Source: Thiohalocapsa sp. | GTDB taxonomy: Bacteria > Pseudomonadota > Gammaproteobacteria > Chromatiales > Chromatiaceae | Length of the DNA stretch: 64,000 nt | Direction of reading: 5' to 3' | Assembly (NCBI GenBank): GCA_021736785.1 | Contig: JAIPFF010000019.1 | Span: forward strand, 1 to 64,000 | In this document: positions 7,122 to 63,222 of the stretch, in pieces | Layout of the letters: each line of letters begins with the position of its first letter | How positions within the stretch are numbered: position 1 is the stretch's first letter | Notes under the pieces: generated by a model | Told to the model about the DNA's origin: nothing | Seen by the model: the letters and a program-made list of their open reading frames with translations, nothing else | The model's database searches: none | Made by a program: the position numbers and the translations under genes

Positions 7122-8330
7122 ATGGCAAGGTATTACTTCAAGGCGGTCAAGCTCGACGGCGAAGAGATCGAGGGCGAGCAGGAGGCCGTGGACGAGGACG
7201 CCCTGGTCCGCCGGCTGCAGGCCGAGGGCCTGATCCCGCTGCAGACCCGCTCTGCCGGCGGCTTTGCCGCGCAGCTTGCGCGTCGCAGACGCCGCGCGCT
7301 GTCGGCGAAGGATATCGAGATCCTCACGCGCCAACTCGCGACGCTGCTCGAGGCCGGACTGACGCTCGACCGCTCCCTCGGCGTGCTCGGCGAATTGACC
7401 ACCGACGAGCACGTCGGCCGCGTCCTGAGCGACCTGCAGGAGCGGGTGCGCGGCGGCGCCACGTTCTCCGCCGCGCTGGAGGCCCAGGACGGACAATTCG
7501 CCAAGCTCTACGTGAATATGGTCCGCGCGGGCGAGGCCAGCGGCGCGGTCGACGAAGTGCTGTCGCGCCTGGCGGACTATCTGGAGCGCAGCGCCGAACT
7601 GCGCGGCACCATCACATCGGCGTTGGTCTATCCTGCGATCTTGCTGTTCGTGGCAGGGCTGTCGGTCATCATGCTGCTGGTATTCGTGGTGCCCCAGTTC
7701 ACAGTGCTGTTCGAGGACATGGGGGCCGCATTGCCGCTGCCGACGCGGATCGTCGTCGGTGCCGGTGATCTCTTCCGCGATTACTGGTGGGCATTTCTGG
7801 TCTTCGTCGCCATCGCCGCCGTGCTGATCGAGCGCTGGCTGCAGAATCCCGAAAACCGTCGCCGTTTCGACTTCGGCGTCATGCGGATGCCGTTATTCGG
7901 CGATTTGATCTGGAAGATGGAGACGGCGCGCTTTTCGCATACGCTATCCACGCTGTTGAAGAACGGCCTGCCGCTGCTGTCCGGGCTGAACCTGGCGAAG
8001 GAAGTCGTCGATAACCGCAAAATCGGCGAAGGCCTCGACGAGGTGGGCGAGGCGCTCAAGCACGGCCGCGGTCTTGCCGAGCCGCTGGCCAGCCGCCAAG
8101 TGCTGCCGCAGTTGGCGCTGCAGATGGTGCGTGTCGGCGAGGAGTCGGGCACGCTGGACGCGATGCTGGCCAAGATTGCCGACATCTTCGACCGCGAAAC
8201 CCGCGCCGCCGTGCAGCGCATGCTGACACTGCTGGAGCCGATGCTCATCATCGGTCTCGGCGTCATCGTCGCCGGCATCATCATCTCGATCCTGATGGCG
8301 ATCCTGGGCGCCAACGAGCTGGTTTTCTGA
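7122..8330 (+). CDS. gspF: Type II secretion system inner-membrane platform protein GspF
   Basis: The polytopic membrane protein at the base of the pseudopilus that couples to GspE. It is 402 residues, the normal length, with two repeated T2SSF domains (about 70-195 and 270-395). Each carries the family pattern, e.g. LTRQLATLLEAGLTLDRSL and FSHTLSTLLKNGLPLLSGL. Three long hydrophobic helices are present, including the C-terminal hairpin LIIGLGVIVAGIIISILMA. The ATG at 7122 opens with MARYYFKAVKLDG, typical of the family. An 88-bp gap separates it from gspE, the largest gap before gspG. Confidence 0.95.
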   Translation: MARYYFKAVKLDGEEIEGEQEAVDEDALVRRLQAEGLIPLQTRSAGGFAAQLARRRRRALSAKDIEILTRQLATLLEAGLTLDRSLGVLGELTTDEHVGRVLSDLQERVRGGATFSAALEAQDGQFAKLYVNMVRAGEASGAVDEVLSRLADYLERSAELRGTITSALVYPAILLFVAGLSVIMLLVFVVPQFTVLFEDMGAALPLPTRIVVGAGDLFRDYWWAFLVFVAIAAVLIERWLQNPENRRRFDFGVMRMPLFGDLIWKMETARFSHTLSTLLKNGLPLLSGLNLAKEVVDNRKIGEGLDEVGEALKHGRGLAEPLASRQVLPQLALQMVRVGEESGTLDAMLAKIADIFDRETRAAVQRMLTLLEPMLIIGLGVIVAGIIISILMAILGANELVF

Positions 8331-56063: not shown

Positions 56064-56483
56064 TTACTGGGCCGGTGCGGCCGGAGCAGCAGGAGCTGCT
56101 GCGGGCGGCGCGCCGTAGGGCATGCCGTAACCGCCGCCGTAAGGCATGCCGTAACCGCCGCCGTAAGGTGCGCCGTAACCGCCGCCGTAAGGCATGCCGT
56201 AGCCGCCGCCGTAAGGTGCGCCGTAACCACCACCATAAGGTGCACCGTAGCCCTGGCCATAACCGCGGCCGTAGCCTTGACCATAACCGCGGCCATAGGC
56301 GCGGCTGCTGCCGCTCATGCTCATGTCGAAGTCGCCGGTGCCGTCACCGAACATGTTGCCGAAGTTGTCCCACATGCCGTTGCCGTAACCGGGACCGCCG
56401 CCCCACCACGCGCTGGCCGAGAAGGAGGCGCCCGCGAGGGCGACAATGCTGGCAATGCCAAGGTTCTTGATCACTTTGTTCAT
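56064..56483 (-). CDS. Sulfur-globule-type Gly/Tyr-rich secreted protein
   Basis: A 139-residue secreted protein. The signal peptide ([20 protein letters not shown], cut near SASA) precedes a mature region starting [21 protein letters not shown], then YGRGYGQ repeats and about six YGGGYGxP repeats, then an Ala/Pro-rich end. The composition and the [15 protein letters not shown] segment resemble the envelope proteins (SgpA/B/C) that coat periplasmic sulfur globules in purple sulfur bacteria. Gly/Tyr repeats also occur in other structural proteins, so the match needs a search. It has its own upstream region of 375 bp. Confidence 0.72.
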
Positions 56484-58827: not shown

Positions 58828-59169
58828 TCAGCAGGAGTGGCAATAATAGTCGGGAAGTCCCGCGACACGGCATGCCTGCTTGCAGCCGCCGTTCGGGAAC
58901 AGGCTTTCGAGGTTCTTGCGGGTGCAGGGGGTGTGCTTCGACACCTCGTTGCCGATGGCGCTGATGATCACTTTCGGCGACGGCGGCATCTCGTGGAACG
59001 CATAGTATTCGCGCATGAAGCTGATCACGGTCCAGTGGCAGTCCGTGAGCTCCAGCCCTTCGCTCGCGGCGAGTGCCCTTGCAAGGTCGTCGTCCCAGTC
59101 GTGGAAGCGGGCCAGATGGCCTTTCTTGTTGAGCTGGACTTCGCGGCCGGCGATCTGCGTGGCGGTCAT
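58828..59169 (-). CDS. DsrC/TusE-family sulfur-relay-like protein with four-cysteine tail
   Basis: A 113-residue protein of the DsrC/TusE superfamily, whose members carry sulfur as a persulfide or trisulfide between enzymes. The fold motifs are LARALAASEGLELTDCHWTV, FMREYYAFHEMPPSPKVI, LESLFPNGGCKQACRVAGLP. Classical DsrC ends AGLPKPTGCV, with one Cys in the KQAC motif and one at the tail. Here the tail reads GGCKQAC (Cys96, Cys100), then GLPDYYCHSC (Cys110, Cys113), so a CxxC replaces the single terminal Cys. It has an excellent ribosome-binding site (GGAGGAGA). Two more Cys occur earlier (TDCHW, TPCTR). It does not look like the tRNA-thiolation TusE. Confidence 0.82.
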   Translation of the reverse strand: MTATQIAGREVQLNKKGHLARFHDWDDDLARALAASEGLELTDCHWTVISFMREYYAFHEMPPSPKVIISAIGNEVSKHTPCTRKNLESLFPNGGCKQACRVAGLPDYYCHSC

Positions 59170-59432: not shown

Positions 59433-59915
59433 TCACCAGCTTGCCGCCGCCTCGGCGATGCCTTGCAGCATCTCGGCAACCTCCTTCATCACCGCGCTCC
59501 CCTCGATCTCTTCCGCGGGGAAGGTTCGATGGGCAAGGTAGGTGGTGTCGGGCTCGTCCGGCAGCCGATAGACCGAGATGATGAACGGGCAATTGACGAT
59601 GCGGATCGGATCTTCGGAGGTCATTTTGCGCGACAGCACCGCGCTGCAGAATTCGATGGAATCGGCCGCGGTATAGATGTCCTCGTCCATGCCGAGATCC
59701 TTACCGGTGCGATCGAGCATCTCGTCCATGTGCATGACGTTGTTGATGTACATCCCCCGCTCTTGAATCGCCAGCTTGAGCGCGTCCATCACGTCCTCGA
59801 AGCTGCTCTCGCTCTGATAAACCGCGTAGCCGCCGGCCTCGTCCGCCGGGAGCGGCGCCGCAAAGAGCGAAAGGGCGATGGCGGCGGCGGGCAGGAGGCG
59901 TGTGTCGATATGCAT
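59433..59915 (-). CDS. DUF302 periplasmic protein
   Basis: A 160-residue secreted protein. A signal peptide (MHIDTRLLPAAAIALSLFAAP, cut near ALP-ADEA) leads into a DUF302-type domain (FEDVMDALKLAIQERGMYIN, VNCPFIISVYRLPDEPDTTY). DUF302 proteins are periplasmic or cytoplasmic, of unknown biochemical role, and common in sulfur-oxidising and metal-stressed bacteria. It lies upstream of the DsrC-like gene on the same strand, about 260 bp away, and is divergent from the ICMT-like methyltransferase. The ATG at 59915 is preferred because it gives a proper signal peptide. Confidence 0.8.
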   Translation of the reverse strand: MHIDTRLLPAAAIALSLFAAPLPADEAGGYAVYQSESSFEDVMDALKLAIQERGMYINNVMHMDEMLDRTGKDLGMDEDIYTAADSIEFCSAVLSRKMTSEDPIRIVNCPFIISVYRLPDEPDTTYLAHRTFPAEEIEGSAVMKEVAEMLQGIAEAAASW

Positions 59916-60018: not shown

Positions 60019-60693
60019 ATGGTGCTCATGAACGAATTGTTTTTGTTGGCCGTGCTCTGGGTCGGTTACTTCGCGCTGCACTCGGCGCTGGCATCGCTGA
60101 CCCTCAAGCGTTGGATCGCGGCGCGGCGACCCGGCTGGCTGCGGGCTTACCGGCTCGCTTTCAACATCATCGCCGGCGTGCTGCTGTTGCCGCCGCTGTG
60201 GCTGATCTATGCCGAGCGCGGCCCCTGGCTTTGGCAGTGGACGGGGCCTTGGTGGTGGCTGTCTACCGCACTGGCAGTGCTGGCCGCGGGCGCCTTTCTC
60301 TGGTCCCTGCGGTGGTACGACGGCGCCGAGTTTCTGGGATTGGCGCAGCTGCACCGCCAAGACCGGCGGGTCGAGGATCAGGAAGCATTCCATCTGTCGC
60401 CGCTGCATCGCTACGTGCGCCATCCGTGGTACACGCTCGGACTGGTCATCATCTGGACCCGCGACATGGACCCGGCGATGTTGCTGAGCGCACTGTTTCT
60501 GACTGCCTATCTGGTGGCCGGCTCGCGTCTCGAGGAGCGCAAGCTGCTGGTTTATCACGGTGATCGCTATCGCCGTTACCGTGACGCGGTGCCTGCCCTG
60601 CTGCCGTTGCCGGGACGCCGGCTAAGCGCCGACCAAGCGCGCGCCTTGACCGAGGCTGCGCCGGCGGACAAAGGCCGCGGTGCGAGGCGCTGA
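60019..60693 (+). CDS. Isoprenylcysteine carboxyl methyltransferase-like (ICMT/PEMT) membrane protein
   Basis: A 224-residue inner-membrane protein with about five helices (LFLLAVLWVGYFALHSALASL and others). The C-terminal cofactor site of the ICMT/phospholipid-methyltransferase family is present: LHRYVRHPWYTLGLVII, then RLEERKLLVYHGDRYRRYRD, ending AVPALLPLP. The substrate is unknown. An in-frame ATG three codons in (60028) is also possible. It is the only plus-strand gene between the DUF302 and sulfur-globule-like genes and is followed by a long repeat-bearing gap. Confidence 0.78.
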   Translation: MVLMNELFLLAVLWVGYFALHSALASLTLKRWIAARRPGWLRAYRLAFNIIAGVLLLPPLWLIYAERGPWLWQWTGPWWWLSTALAVLAAGAFLWSLRWYDGAEFLGLAQLHRQDRRVEDQEAFHLSPLHRYVRHPWYTLGLVIIWTRDMDPAMLLSALFLTAYLVAGSRLEERKLLVYHGDRYRRYRDAVPALLPLPGRRLSADQARALTEAAPADKGRGARR

Positions 60694-61186: not shown

Positions 61187-61684
61187 TCAGTACTGATCCA
61201 TGGGCCGAAACGCCGGCGCCGACGGCCAGTCGCCGCTGCCCGCGCTGGGCGGGGGCGGCGGCGGCGCACCGGCACCTTGCCGGCTCTCGAGCTGGTCGAT
61301 ACGCCGTTTCAGGGCTTCGATTTCCTTGTCTTTAGCGTCGTCGCTGCCGGACGCCGCGGCCGGTCCGGGTGCGGCCGGCGCAGCGGGAGCCGCATAGCCG
61401 GGTGCAGCCGGCGGCGCATAGCCATAGGGAACCGCACCGTAACCGGGTGCGCCGTAAGGTGCGTAGCCGCCATAGCCGGGCGCGCCATAGGGAGCGCCGC
61501 CGTAAGGGCCATATGCCCCGTAAGGCGCCCCGTAGTAATAGTCGTCGTAATCGTCGTCGCCGCCCATCCATCGGCCCGGGCTGAACATGTCACCGAAGTT
61601 GAAGGCATGGGCGAGAGGCGCGGCCGCGAGCAGGCCGGCAGCGAGAGCAATCGTGGTGGAGCGTGAGCGCAACTTCTTTGCCAC
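61187..61684 (-). CDS. Second sulfur-globule-type Gly/Tyr/Pro-rich secreted protein
   Basis: A 165-residue secreted protein. From the GTG at 61684 the signal peptide is AKKLRSRSTTIALAAGLLAA, cut near AHA-FNFGD. The mature part starts FNFGDMFSPGRWMGGDDDYDD, then YGAPYGAYGPYG and related repeats, an Ala/Pro-rich stretch, and a C-terminal coiled coil (DKEIEALKRRIDQLESRQ). The FNFGDM..PxRWMGG opening is similar to sulfur-globule-family proteins. The ribosome-binding site GGAGG supports the GTG start. It is about 4.7 kb from the first such gene, and both are on the minus strand. Confidence 0.68.
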   Translation of the reverse strand: MAKKLRSRSTTIALAAGLLAAAPLAHAFNFGDMFSPGRWMGGDDDYDDYYYGAPYGAYGPYGGAPYGAPGYGGYAPYGAPGYGAVPYGYAPPAAPGYAAPAAPAAPGPAAASGSDDAKDKEIEALKRRIDQLESRQGAGAPPPPPPSAGSGDWPSAPAFRPMDQY

Positions 61685-61833
61685 AGCGGAAAGTCCTCCA
61701 TTGGCGTTGTCGGGGTAGGGCCCCCAAAATTCTGTGCAAGCCCTCCCGGGGGGCCCGGGCGATCTCTGCCGCCTGATGACTGCCGAGGATACTACAGCGC
61801 CGCTGCCGGCGGCAGCAGCGGTTTTCGCCATTC

Positions 61834-61873
61834 GCCGAGCCCGTGCGGTCCTAGCCGAGCCCGTGCGGTCCTA
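61834..61873. repeat. Two direct 20-bp copies covering the hypB stop codon
   Basis: GCCGAGCCCGTGCGGTCCTA occurs twice in a row (61834-61853 and 61854-61873). The right copy includes the hypB stop (CTA at 61871-61873 on this strand). The duplication continues the GTGCCC-type repeat that encodes the His-Gly tail. Confidence 0.9.
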
Positions 61874-62773
61874 GCCGTGCCCGTGCCCGTGCCCGTGCCC
61901 GTGCCCGTGCTCATGATCGTGGCCGTGGGCATGGTGATGTCGATGATGCGCTCCTTCCCCGGCGTGCAGCGCTGCGCCCTCCTTCTGGATGTCGGGATGC
62001 ACGGTCTCGCCTCGCTCCACGCGGCGGCGCTGCTCGAGCACTTCCGCGCGCAGCCAATCGAGCCAGGGGGCGATGCCGTCGCCGTGGCCGCGTGCGCTGA
62101 GCCGCAGGAAGGGTGCGTTGCTTGCCAGGTTGCGCAGGTAGCCCTCGGCGCGCTGCGGATCGAAATCGTCCAGGTACTGCAGCAAGTCCGATTTGGTCAG
62201 CAAGACCAAGTCAGCCGCACGGAACATAACGGGGTATTTGGCGGGCTTGTCGTCGCCTTCGGGCACCGACAGCAGCGTGATGTTTCGATGCTGGCCCAAG
62301 TCGAAGCTGGCCGGACAGACCAGGTTGCCGACATTCTCTATGAACAGTATGTCGACGTCGGCGAGGTCGAGACGGTGCAGTGCGTCGTGCACCATATGGG
62401 CGTCCAGATGGCAGGCGCTGCCGGTTGCGATCTGGATCGCGTCGACGCCTTTGGCGCGAATTCGCTCGGCGTCGTTTTCGGTTTCGAGATCGCCCTCGAC
62501 CACGGCGATGCGCAATTCGTCGCCGAGCGCCTCGATCGTGGCCTCGAGCAGGCTGGTTTTGCCGGCGCCGGGCGATGACATCAAATTGACCGCCAGCAAC
62601 CCGTGGCTGTCGAAGTGGTAGCGGTTGTGCTGCGCCTGGCGGTCGTTCTCGCCGAGCAGGCTCTCCAACACTTCCACCGCGGCGCGGCCATCGGCCGTGC
62701 GGGCATGCTTGCCGTCGGCCTGGACCAGATGCTCGTTGCCGGGGGTGATATTACAGCCGCAGGTCTCGCACAT
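61871..62773 (-). CDS. hypB: Hydrogenase nickel-incorporation GTPase HypB with C-terminal His-rich tail
   Basis: GTPase that delivers nickel to [NiFe] hydrogenase with HypA. It is 300 residues from the ATG at 62773 with an AAGGAG site. The N-terminal metal-binding motif is CETCGC, and the GTPase motifs are NLMSSPGAGKTSLLEA (P-loop), VVEGDLETENDAERI, ENVGNLVCPA and LLTKSDLL. The last 31 residues hold 15 His, mostly as alternating His-Gly pairs, encoded by a repeating GTGCCC run. His-rich stretches of HypB are usually N-terminal or internal, so a C-terminal one is unusual and could store nickel. hypA lies 47 bp upstream. Confidence 0.93.
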   Translation of the reverse strand: MCETCGCNITPGNEHLVQADGKHARTADGRAAVEVLESLLGENDRQAQHNRYHFDSHGLLAVNLMSSPGAGKTSLLEATIEALGDELRIAVVEGDLETENDAERIRAKGVDAIQIATGSACHLDAHMVHDALHRLDLADVDILFIENVGNLVCPASFDLGQHRNITLLSVPEGDDKPAKYPVMFRAADLVLLTKSDLLQYLDDFDPQRAEGYLRNLASNAPFLRLSARGHGDGIAPWLDWLRAEVLEQRRRVERGETVHPDIQKEGAALHAGEGAHHRHHHAHGHDHEHGHGHGHGHGHG

Positions 62774-62820: not shown

Positions 62821-63222
62821 CTATAGCAGTCGGTCGCCGCCAACCGAGCCGGGATCGGATTGTGGGTTTTCGACGTCCGGCACATGCAGTTCCAGGCGCG
62901 CCAGCAACATTTCGTCGCCGCTGACCAGGCGCGTGCGGTGGCTGCCGCAGGCGCCGCACAAGAGCCGGTTGGCAGCCGCCTCGGTCTCGGCCCCGCAGTC
63001 GTCGCAGCCGACCCGCACCGGCGCGGCTTCGATGTCGAGCACCGCATGCTCGGCGACGGTGCCGGCGGCTGCCAACGGATAGGCGTTGGCGAGCAGCGAC
63101 GCCTCGACGCCGGACAGCGGGCCGATGCGCAGCAGGATACGCTCGACGCGCTCGGCACCGTTCTCGCGGGCGATGCGCTCCACCTGTTCGAGCAGCGACA
63201 GACAGACAGACAGTTCATGCAT
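62821..63222 (-). CDS. hypA: Hydrogenase nickel-incorporation protein HypA
   Basis: Partner of HypB in nickel delivery. It is 133 residues from the ATG at 63222. The N-terminal nickel site Met-His-Glu is intact (MHELSVCLSLLEQVERIAR). The zinc site has the four cysteines in GCDDCGAE and LLCGACGS. The frame continues upstream for five codons, but MHE must be at the N-terminus to bind nickel, so 63222 is the right start. Hydrogenase structural genes and hypCDE are not in the window. Confidence 0.94.
   Translation of the reverse strand: MHELSVCLSLLEQVERIARENGAERVERILLRIGPLSGVEASLLANAYPLAAAGTVAEHAVLDIEAAPVRVGCDDCGAETEAAANRLLCGACGSHRTRLVSGDEMLLARLELHVPDVENPQSDPGSVGGDRLL

Follow-up and report, generated by a model that had tools for sequence, protein, structure and literature searches.

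The window analyzed here, a stretch of 64,000 nucleotides of Thiohalocapsa sp. DNA, encodes a small DsrC-like protein of 113 aa with four cysteines in its C-terminal tail (58828–59169, reverse strand, stop codon counted; ORF and profile matches). This locus raises the question of what such a tail could do and which partner it could serve. An extra DsrC of this kind, unstudied so far, is found in many purple sulfur bacteria and lies beside hydrogenase genes in several lineages, a setting that suggests a possible role in connecting hydrogen with sulfur metabolism.

A DsrC Paralog with Four Tail Cysteines

The ATG at position 59169 gives the protein of 113 aa, and an upstream GTG would give 140 aa. 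An earlier note on this DNA had read the ORF as a DsrC/TusE-like protein, which is borne out by matches to PF04358 (E 4.5e-31, 107.9 bits, cut-off 24.9) and TIGR03342 (92.6 bits, cut-off 53.5). The nearest solved structure by sequence is the A. vinosum DsrC (1yx3). The best AlphaFold2 model has a mean pLDDT of 90.4 (76.1–81.9 in the remaining four) and contains helices at residues 96–102 and 107–111. A Foldseek search of the PDB with this model at E ≤ 0.001 gave eight matches, all to DsrC-family structures, 1yx3 among them (E 1.6e-7). The modeled structure places the variant in the DsrC family, with the DsrC fold.

Nine DsrC-family genes were found in this genome. The earlier note had named dsrAB and dsrEFH as genes to look for elsewhere; both are present on contig C73 in a dsr cluster with dsrM, dsrK and the ordinary dsrC, and the variant, 40% identical to the ordinary DsrC, is on contig C40. 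The second tail cysteine of the ordinary protein (KQACRYAGLPKPTGCV) is at +11 from the first, whereas those of the variant are at +10 and +13. Comparison of the two endings, YGPAKQACRYAGLPKPTGCV in the ordinary DsrC and NGGCKQACRVAGLPDYYCHSC in the variant, indicates that the residue four positions before the active cysteine and the entire terminal segment differ. In the tails of the other paralogs, one or both DsrC cysteines are missing, or the ending is TusE-like. A cysteine-free paralog with an RKGGY tail (L182:10454-10789, forward strand) lies near dsrA, pointing away from it, and recurs near dsrA in several relatives.

The whole variant protein contains six cysteines (C44, C82, C96, C100, C110, and C113), the last four exactly where the earlier note had placed them in the tail GGCKQACRVAGLPDYYCHSC (codons 94–113, 58831–58890, reverse strand, by alignment). 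Among 62 distinct sequences, two of which (L061 and L071) come from outside the window's family, C96 and C100 are present in all 62, C110 in 61 and C113 in 59, the full set of four being kept in 58; the body cysteines C82 and C44 are found in 57 and 50, respectively. L071, located at a contig start and with two stops reported in its match, belongs to a second subtype with the tail GGCKLACKIAGLPDCHCRGV (GGC-x3-C-x7-C-x-C, ending GLPDCHCRG[VL] or close to it). In the eleven sequences of this subtype II, ten from the order of genome G426 and one from genome G361, C96, C100 and C108 are invariant and C110 is present in ten, so that the second pair of cysteines is at +8 and +10. The same order also yielded four sequences with the window's tail (subtype I). 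In the sequences compared, both subtypes keep two plus two tail cysteines but differ in how the second pair is spaced. The dN/dS values between the window and nine homologs are about 0.11–0.34, and synonymous TGC/TGT changes are observed at the tail cysteine codons among these sequences. Given this conservation in relatives, the low dN/dS and the synonymous changes at the cysteine codons, the tail is not a product of chance, and the claim of the earlier note that it is a real, non-canonical multi-cysteine tail holds.

Distribution and Phylogeny of the Variant

A single scan across a collection of genomes at the species level revealed 23 relatives, 22 of which are in Thiohalocapsa, Halochromatium, Lamprobacter, Thiocapsa, Thiocystis, Allochromatium or Chromatiaceae records and one in a gammaproteobacterial MAG; 18 of their loci together with the window make up the set A1 of 19 sequences. 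In a profile search, the variant was detected in 64 of the 194 genomes of the window's family (its named relatives are Chromatiaceae), and the same 64 were the carriers among the 210 genomes of the order. Carriers were selected manually, as those whose match extends to model position 112 or 113 with at least 129.9 bits. The split was clean, the other listed matches scoring at most 116.2 bits and stopping at positions 107–109. A class sample of 369 genomes added two carriers to the window's own genome, G426 and G361, and the profile search in the order of G426 found the variant in 14 of 24 genomes. In a phylum sample of 398, only the window's own genome was matched (none of the 397 others) at E 1e-33, a threshold which could miss distant subtypes.

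Since the search profile contains the tail itself, trees were built from the body alone, with residues 94–113 omitted. In the tree with all paralog types (29 of the 62 variants; identical paralogs and those shorter than 90 aa dropped), the variant forms one group in 80% of bootstraps (support 83/55), and when only DsrC and RspA-type rows were added, it forms one group in 200 of 200; these trees have few columns, and many of their forks are unresolved. Judged by its sequence, the variant is a conserved paralog lineage separate from canonical DsrC. The earlier note had proposed a DsrC tree with an inspection of tail motifs, and both results, the separate group and the conserved four-cysteine tail, support its reading in part.

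The phototrophy marker PF00124 is present in 54 of the 64 carriers and in 78 of the 194 family genomes, one of the latter (G174) by a weak match (Fisher p 6e-19, not corrected for kinship). The variant is not a photosynthesis gene, given that ten of the 64 carriers do not have PF00124. A phage or plasmid origin was also rejected: viral contigs gave ten pattern matches and no relative, and the two phage and 14 plasmid tblastn matches are all below 60% identity. None of the latter reaches the last residue of the query, and where annotated they are tusE.

The genome G124, which is probably that of A. vinosum, has five DsrC-family genes, the number named in the A. vinosum paper, and none of the five has the variant tail. 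If G124 is indeed A. vinosum, the published Alvin paralogs do not include the four-cysteine variant.

Several divergent copies can be noted. The variants L079, L083 and L099 (genus g36, probably Thiodictyon) are without C44 and C82 and keep the four tail cysteines; a neighbor resembles sulfide:quinone reductase by eye, and the genome G178 of this group has two variant copies. In L084 (genome G166), both C44 and C82 are replaced and the tail is altered to RAYCQFC. The gene is missing from four other sampled genomes of that genus and from the probable A. vinosum genome. Possibly, the L084 copy is under relaxed constraint.

Gene Neighborhood and Linkage to Hydrogenase Genes

All the annotated neighbors discussed here, with one exception, are on the strand of the variant. 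Upstream, after a gap of about 260 bp, lies a gene for a small DUF302-like protein (59433–59915), followed by a glycine/tyrosine-rich protein without a Pfam or NCBIfam match (61187–61831), hypB for hydrogenase nickel incorporation (61871–62773; TIGR00073, 266 bits, cut-off 121.2) and hypA for a nickel metallochaperone (62821–63222; TIGR00100, 89.7 bits, cut-off 88.1; PF01155, 104.8 bits). The earlier note mentions neither the presence of hypA and hypB in the same stretch nor the hydrogenase linkage of other lineages. On the other side, a sulfur globule protein (SGP) is encoded (56064–56483; PF17228, 64.9 bits). Neither it nor the glycine/tyrosine-rich protein is counted as part of the proposed unit. 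The exception in strand is a membrane protein gene (60019–60693, forward), whose product matches the methanethiol S-methyltransferase MddA weakly (58.7 bits, cut-off 270).

The earlier note had pointed to an adjacent DUF302 gene and two sulfur-globule-like genes as possible marks of an undescribed sulfur-relay variant. The same-strand neighbor is there, but its match to Pfam DUF302 is below the threshold (E 0.15, 12.4 bits, cut-off 23); one of the two sulfur-globule-like genes is an SGP, while the other matches no Pfam or NCBIfam family. As a mark of the system, this context is not supported, since the DUF302-like gene is present in only eight of 55 non-redundant loci. All eight, the window included, belong to the Thiohalocapsa/Halochromatium group, where the DUF302-like gene and hypB are upstream of the variant and hypA is beyond. 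DUF302 and sulfur-globule genes as a functional unit were rejected for this restriction to one group and the Pfam E of 0.15. A universal partner by synteny was also rejected, the commonest neighbor cluster occurring in ten of the 55 non-redundant loci. Other groups have, by eye, malate synthase and acetolactate synthase as neighbors, together with a Deg-type protease, which was checked separately. Among the conserved neighbors of the 55 variant loci (19 neighbor ORFs inspected, and only part of the neighbors named), no member of a dsr gene family was seen, and the variant is outside the dsr cluster in every variant locus examined. The gene is mobile in its genomic context.

The strongest linkage was found in the order of G426 (f99 loci, counted on stretches of unequal length). 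In six of its ten subtype II loci, the variant is directly preceded on its own strand by hydS, isp1, isp2, hydL, and a gene that we call p160; another two loci are truncated at the contig start and still hold isp2, hydL and p160, one at a contig end holds p160 only, and one is without any hydrogenase cluster gene despite 6.2 kb of upstream sequence. HydL thus accompanies the variant in eight of the ten loci, where it comes behind hydL and p160 in the gene cluster of an Isp-type [NiFe] hydrogenase. The gaps between p160 and the variant in nine loci are 35, 317, 21, 54, 42, 20, 733, 20 and 60 bp, i.e., 20–60 bp in seven of them. The four subtype I loci of this order gave no hydrogenase match. 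The identities of HydL, HydS and Isp2 were checked with Pfam and NCBIfam, and Isp1 and Isp2 were named from gene order and similarity (TmcC-like and DsrK-like, under the cut-offs), as in the T. bogorovii paper. Isp2 resembles DsrK (E 9.1e-71, 238.8 bits, under the cut-off of 400) and carries a CCG domain.

Arranged differently, this cluster is also adjacent to the variant in three loci of Thiocystis (L092, L030, and L029) and in two of three of the genus g29 (L104 and L087). The Thiocystis locus L092 contains hypB, hypA, the variant, p160, hydS, isp1, isp2 and hydL within 14 kb; with hypB and hypA on the other side of the variant, it joins the hypAB arrangement of the window to the hydrogenase arrangement. 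The hypA–hypB genes are near the variant in eight further loci, the window among them. Six loci of Thiocapsa and Thiodictyon have a HoxF-like gene cluster no more than about 6.5 kb from the variant; of the two examined with Pfam, only L078 has a large subunit that passes PF00374. An Isp-type cluster is linked to the variant in five of the 55 Chromatiaceae-set loci, and 41 of the 55 have no hydrogenase-type match. HydSL-Isp genes are not in the 88-kb contig of the window and were not found in about 0.87 Mb inspected of this 5.2-Mb genome.

The control comprised 20 stretches from six genomes, each about 14 kb long and surrounding another DsrC paralog; three have a hydrogenase-type match: L235, where a paralog with one cysteine follows hydL at a distance of about 1 kb, L236, with another [NiFe] hydrogenase, and L241, with p160. 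The Chromatiaceae variant loci do not differ significantly from this control, whether counted as 12 of the 35 loci that extend 5 kb or more to each side (p 0.21) or as 14 of 55 (p 0.53). The f99 subtype II loci, which are related to each other, do differ (HydL in 8 of 10 versus 2 of 20, p 0.0003).

In the stretch L235:1266-7343 (Thiocapsa genome G071), the paralog, with the tail ...SFGSVQ, is on the same strand as hydL. The Isp-hydrogenase link may be common to more than one DsrC paralog.

The p160 protein (150–160 aa; for example, L092:7759-8211 and L200:7254-7733, both on the reverse strand and adjoining the hyd-isp cluster) has no Pfam or NCBIfam match and is encoded beside hydS-isp1-isp2-hydL in f99, Thiocystis and g29. 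A conserved motif YT.CG...TDW...H can be seen in it by eye, and its AlphaFold2 model is poor (mean pLDDT 49.5). In L087, there is a second, partial hydL-like stretch (7211–7423; 71 aa, 72%) close to the variant and some 3.4 kb from the full hydL, which looks like an insertion or duplication.

A Possible Partner and Comparison with Known Systems

A DsrC paralog encoded together with Isp2, a DsrK relative, would most simply be the substrate of Isp2. Tentatively, as a possibility somewhat short of probable, we propose that the variant is a dedicated DsrC-type cytoplasmic carrier of thiols and sulfane sulfur for the DsrK-like Isp2 of HydS-Isp1-Isp2-HydL, coupling H2 to sulfur/H2S. On this reading, its flexible C-terminus holds two cysteine pairs, C96/C100 one helical turn apart and C110/C113 at the end. 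The tail would load sulfane sulfur or form a disulfide or trisulfide, and would then be reduced, or oxidized in the reverse direction, at the CCG iron–sulfur site of a DsrK-like subunit, the likeliest candidate being Isp2 of this [NiFe] hydrogenase. With a carrier of its own coupling H2 to sulfur/H2S, the hydrogenase would leave the ordinary DsrC to DsrAB and DsrMKJOP. We infer the chemistry, the contact with Isp2, the direction of flow and the same role in unlinked members, that of the window included; linkage is not interaction. Among the three options given in the earlier note, the evidence favors electrons from a different partner.

Published work gives some background to this proposal. 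DsrK acts in a complex that reduces the DsrC trisulfide (PMC10504309). The only known major function of Hyd is H2-dependent sulfur reduction in the dark, as in Thiocapsa, and the physiological partner of HydSL-Isp in purple sulfur bacteria is described as unsettled, with several schemes, none of which covers all valid data (PMC10892978). Against the proposal, A. vinosum has HydSL according to the same source, while its probable genome is without the variant. The Chromatiaceae linkage, not significantly above the 20-locus control, and the four f99 subtype I loci without a match also count against it. Our confidence is limited because of A. vinosum, and also because most loci are unlinked and HydSL-Isp was not found in the inspected part of this genome.

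The variant could instead serve the ordinary oxidative Dsr/Tus route as an auxiliary carrier of sulfane sulfur, passing sulfur from DsrEFH or TusA-type donors to DsrAB or to storage, its extra cysteines holding more than one sulfur and its hydrogenase linkage being incidental. This appears rather unlikely. This genome does hold the dsr genes listed above, and Cys111 is the only DsrC residue that DsrEFH persulfurates in A. vinosum (PMC3397948). In addition, dsrA is found in 61 of the 64 carriers (167 of the 194 family genomes overall), and an SGP match in all but G148 (63 of 64; 172 of 194 overall); both are near-universal in the family, and their co-occurrence with the variant is thus uninformative. 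However, the gene is never inside a dsr cluster in the loci examined, it is missing from 106 of the 167 dsrA-positive family genomes, and it has no cysteine at the +11 spacing of the sulfur acceptor in the DsrC of A. vinosum. Another unlikely reading is that the tail is fixed by a metal ion (Zn or Fe) bound to its four cysteines, in which case the protein would have a structural role or act as metal carrier or redox switch, and not as a carrier of sulfur. Two plus two cysteines in both subtypes (CxxC 110/113 and CxC 108/110) would fit a four-thiolate site, and the nickel genes hypA–hypB are nearby in one group, but four of the 62 rows miss one cysteine of the subtype I pattern (one of them is L071, of subtype II), one subtype II row is without C110, and the AlphaFold2 model was computed without metal. 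That the variant regulates sulfur or hydrogenase genes in response to sulfur or redox state, sensed by its tail, has little probability. PMC5944118 states that DsrC of A. vinosum binds to DNA ahead of the dsr cluster, and the mobile gene context is as expected for a stand-alone regulator; however, no DNA-binding domain was matched, the PDB fold search matched regulators only with E above 1, and the f99 operon position with catalytic subunits fits a carrier better.

A broader and somewhat more doubtful suggestion is that the whole four-cysteine subfamily, not recognized before, is the dedicated substrate of Isp2 and the missing carrier between H2 and stored sulfur in purple and related sulfur bacteria, forming with p160 an unnamed hydrogenase–sulfur module. 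A specific small protein behind or beside the hydrogenase makes the question of the HydSL-Isp partner directly testable. The variant is also a natural variant of the DsrC tail, useful for asking what each cysteine does, and DsrC paralogs are worth sorting by tail and context and not by the single annotation TusE/DsrC/DsvC.

The variant has probably been listed before. The accessible part of the literature names the DsrC-like genes THSYN_09485, 18820 and 22565 in T. syntrophicum and seven LT988 genes in T. bogorovii, and the variant is probably among them: THSYN_09485 would correspond to it by position in genome G107, and LT988_16185 by its numbering near hox2. There, these genes are given without an analysis of tails, and the function is described only as 'could function as TusA homologues'. 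In the accessible parts of the open-access literature, no description of the four-cysteine tail, its function or its hydrogenase link was found; subscription reviews may mention it.

Among the known relatives, DsrC (A. vinosum Alvin_1256, 1yx3; TIGR03342) shares with the variant the family, the fold and the KQAC-type first tail cysteine. The variant adds a cysteine at −4 (GGC versus GPA), has cysteines at +10 and +13 in place of the penultimate one at +11 of the canonical ...GLPKPTGCV tail, and is a separate lineage located outside the dsr cluster. TusE has the family and the C-terminal cysteine region in common with the variant, which scores 67.8 bits against the TusE equivalog NF008562, far under the cut-off of 191; the TusE-like paralogs of these genomes end in GLPKPTGCV and form their own group apart from it. 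The cysteine-poor DsrC-like paralogs, which we take to be the RspA of Venceslau et al. 2014, are of the same family, one of them being upstream of dsrA in this genome, and unlike the variant they end in KQGTKIAGLPEVQRKGGY, with no cysteine. Closest to our proposal is that of PMC5944118 (Isp is described in PMC10892978), in which Isp passes electrons to a DsrC disulfide. The accessible parts of these papers name DsrC generally and tie no four-cysteine paralog to Isp, whereas here the connection comes from gene linkage. Electron flow from Isp to DsrC had already been proposed in print, and what is new is the particular conserved four-cysteine paralog as its candidate.
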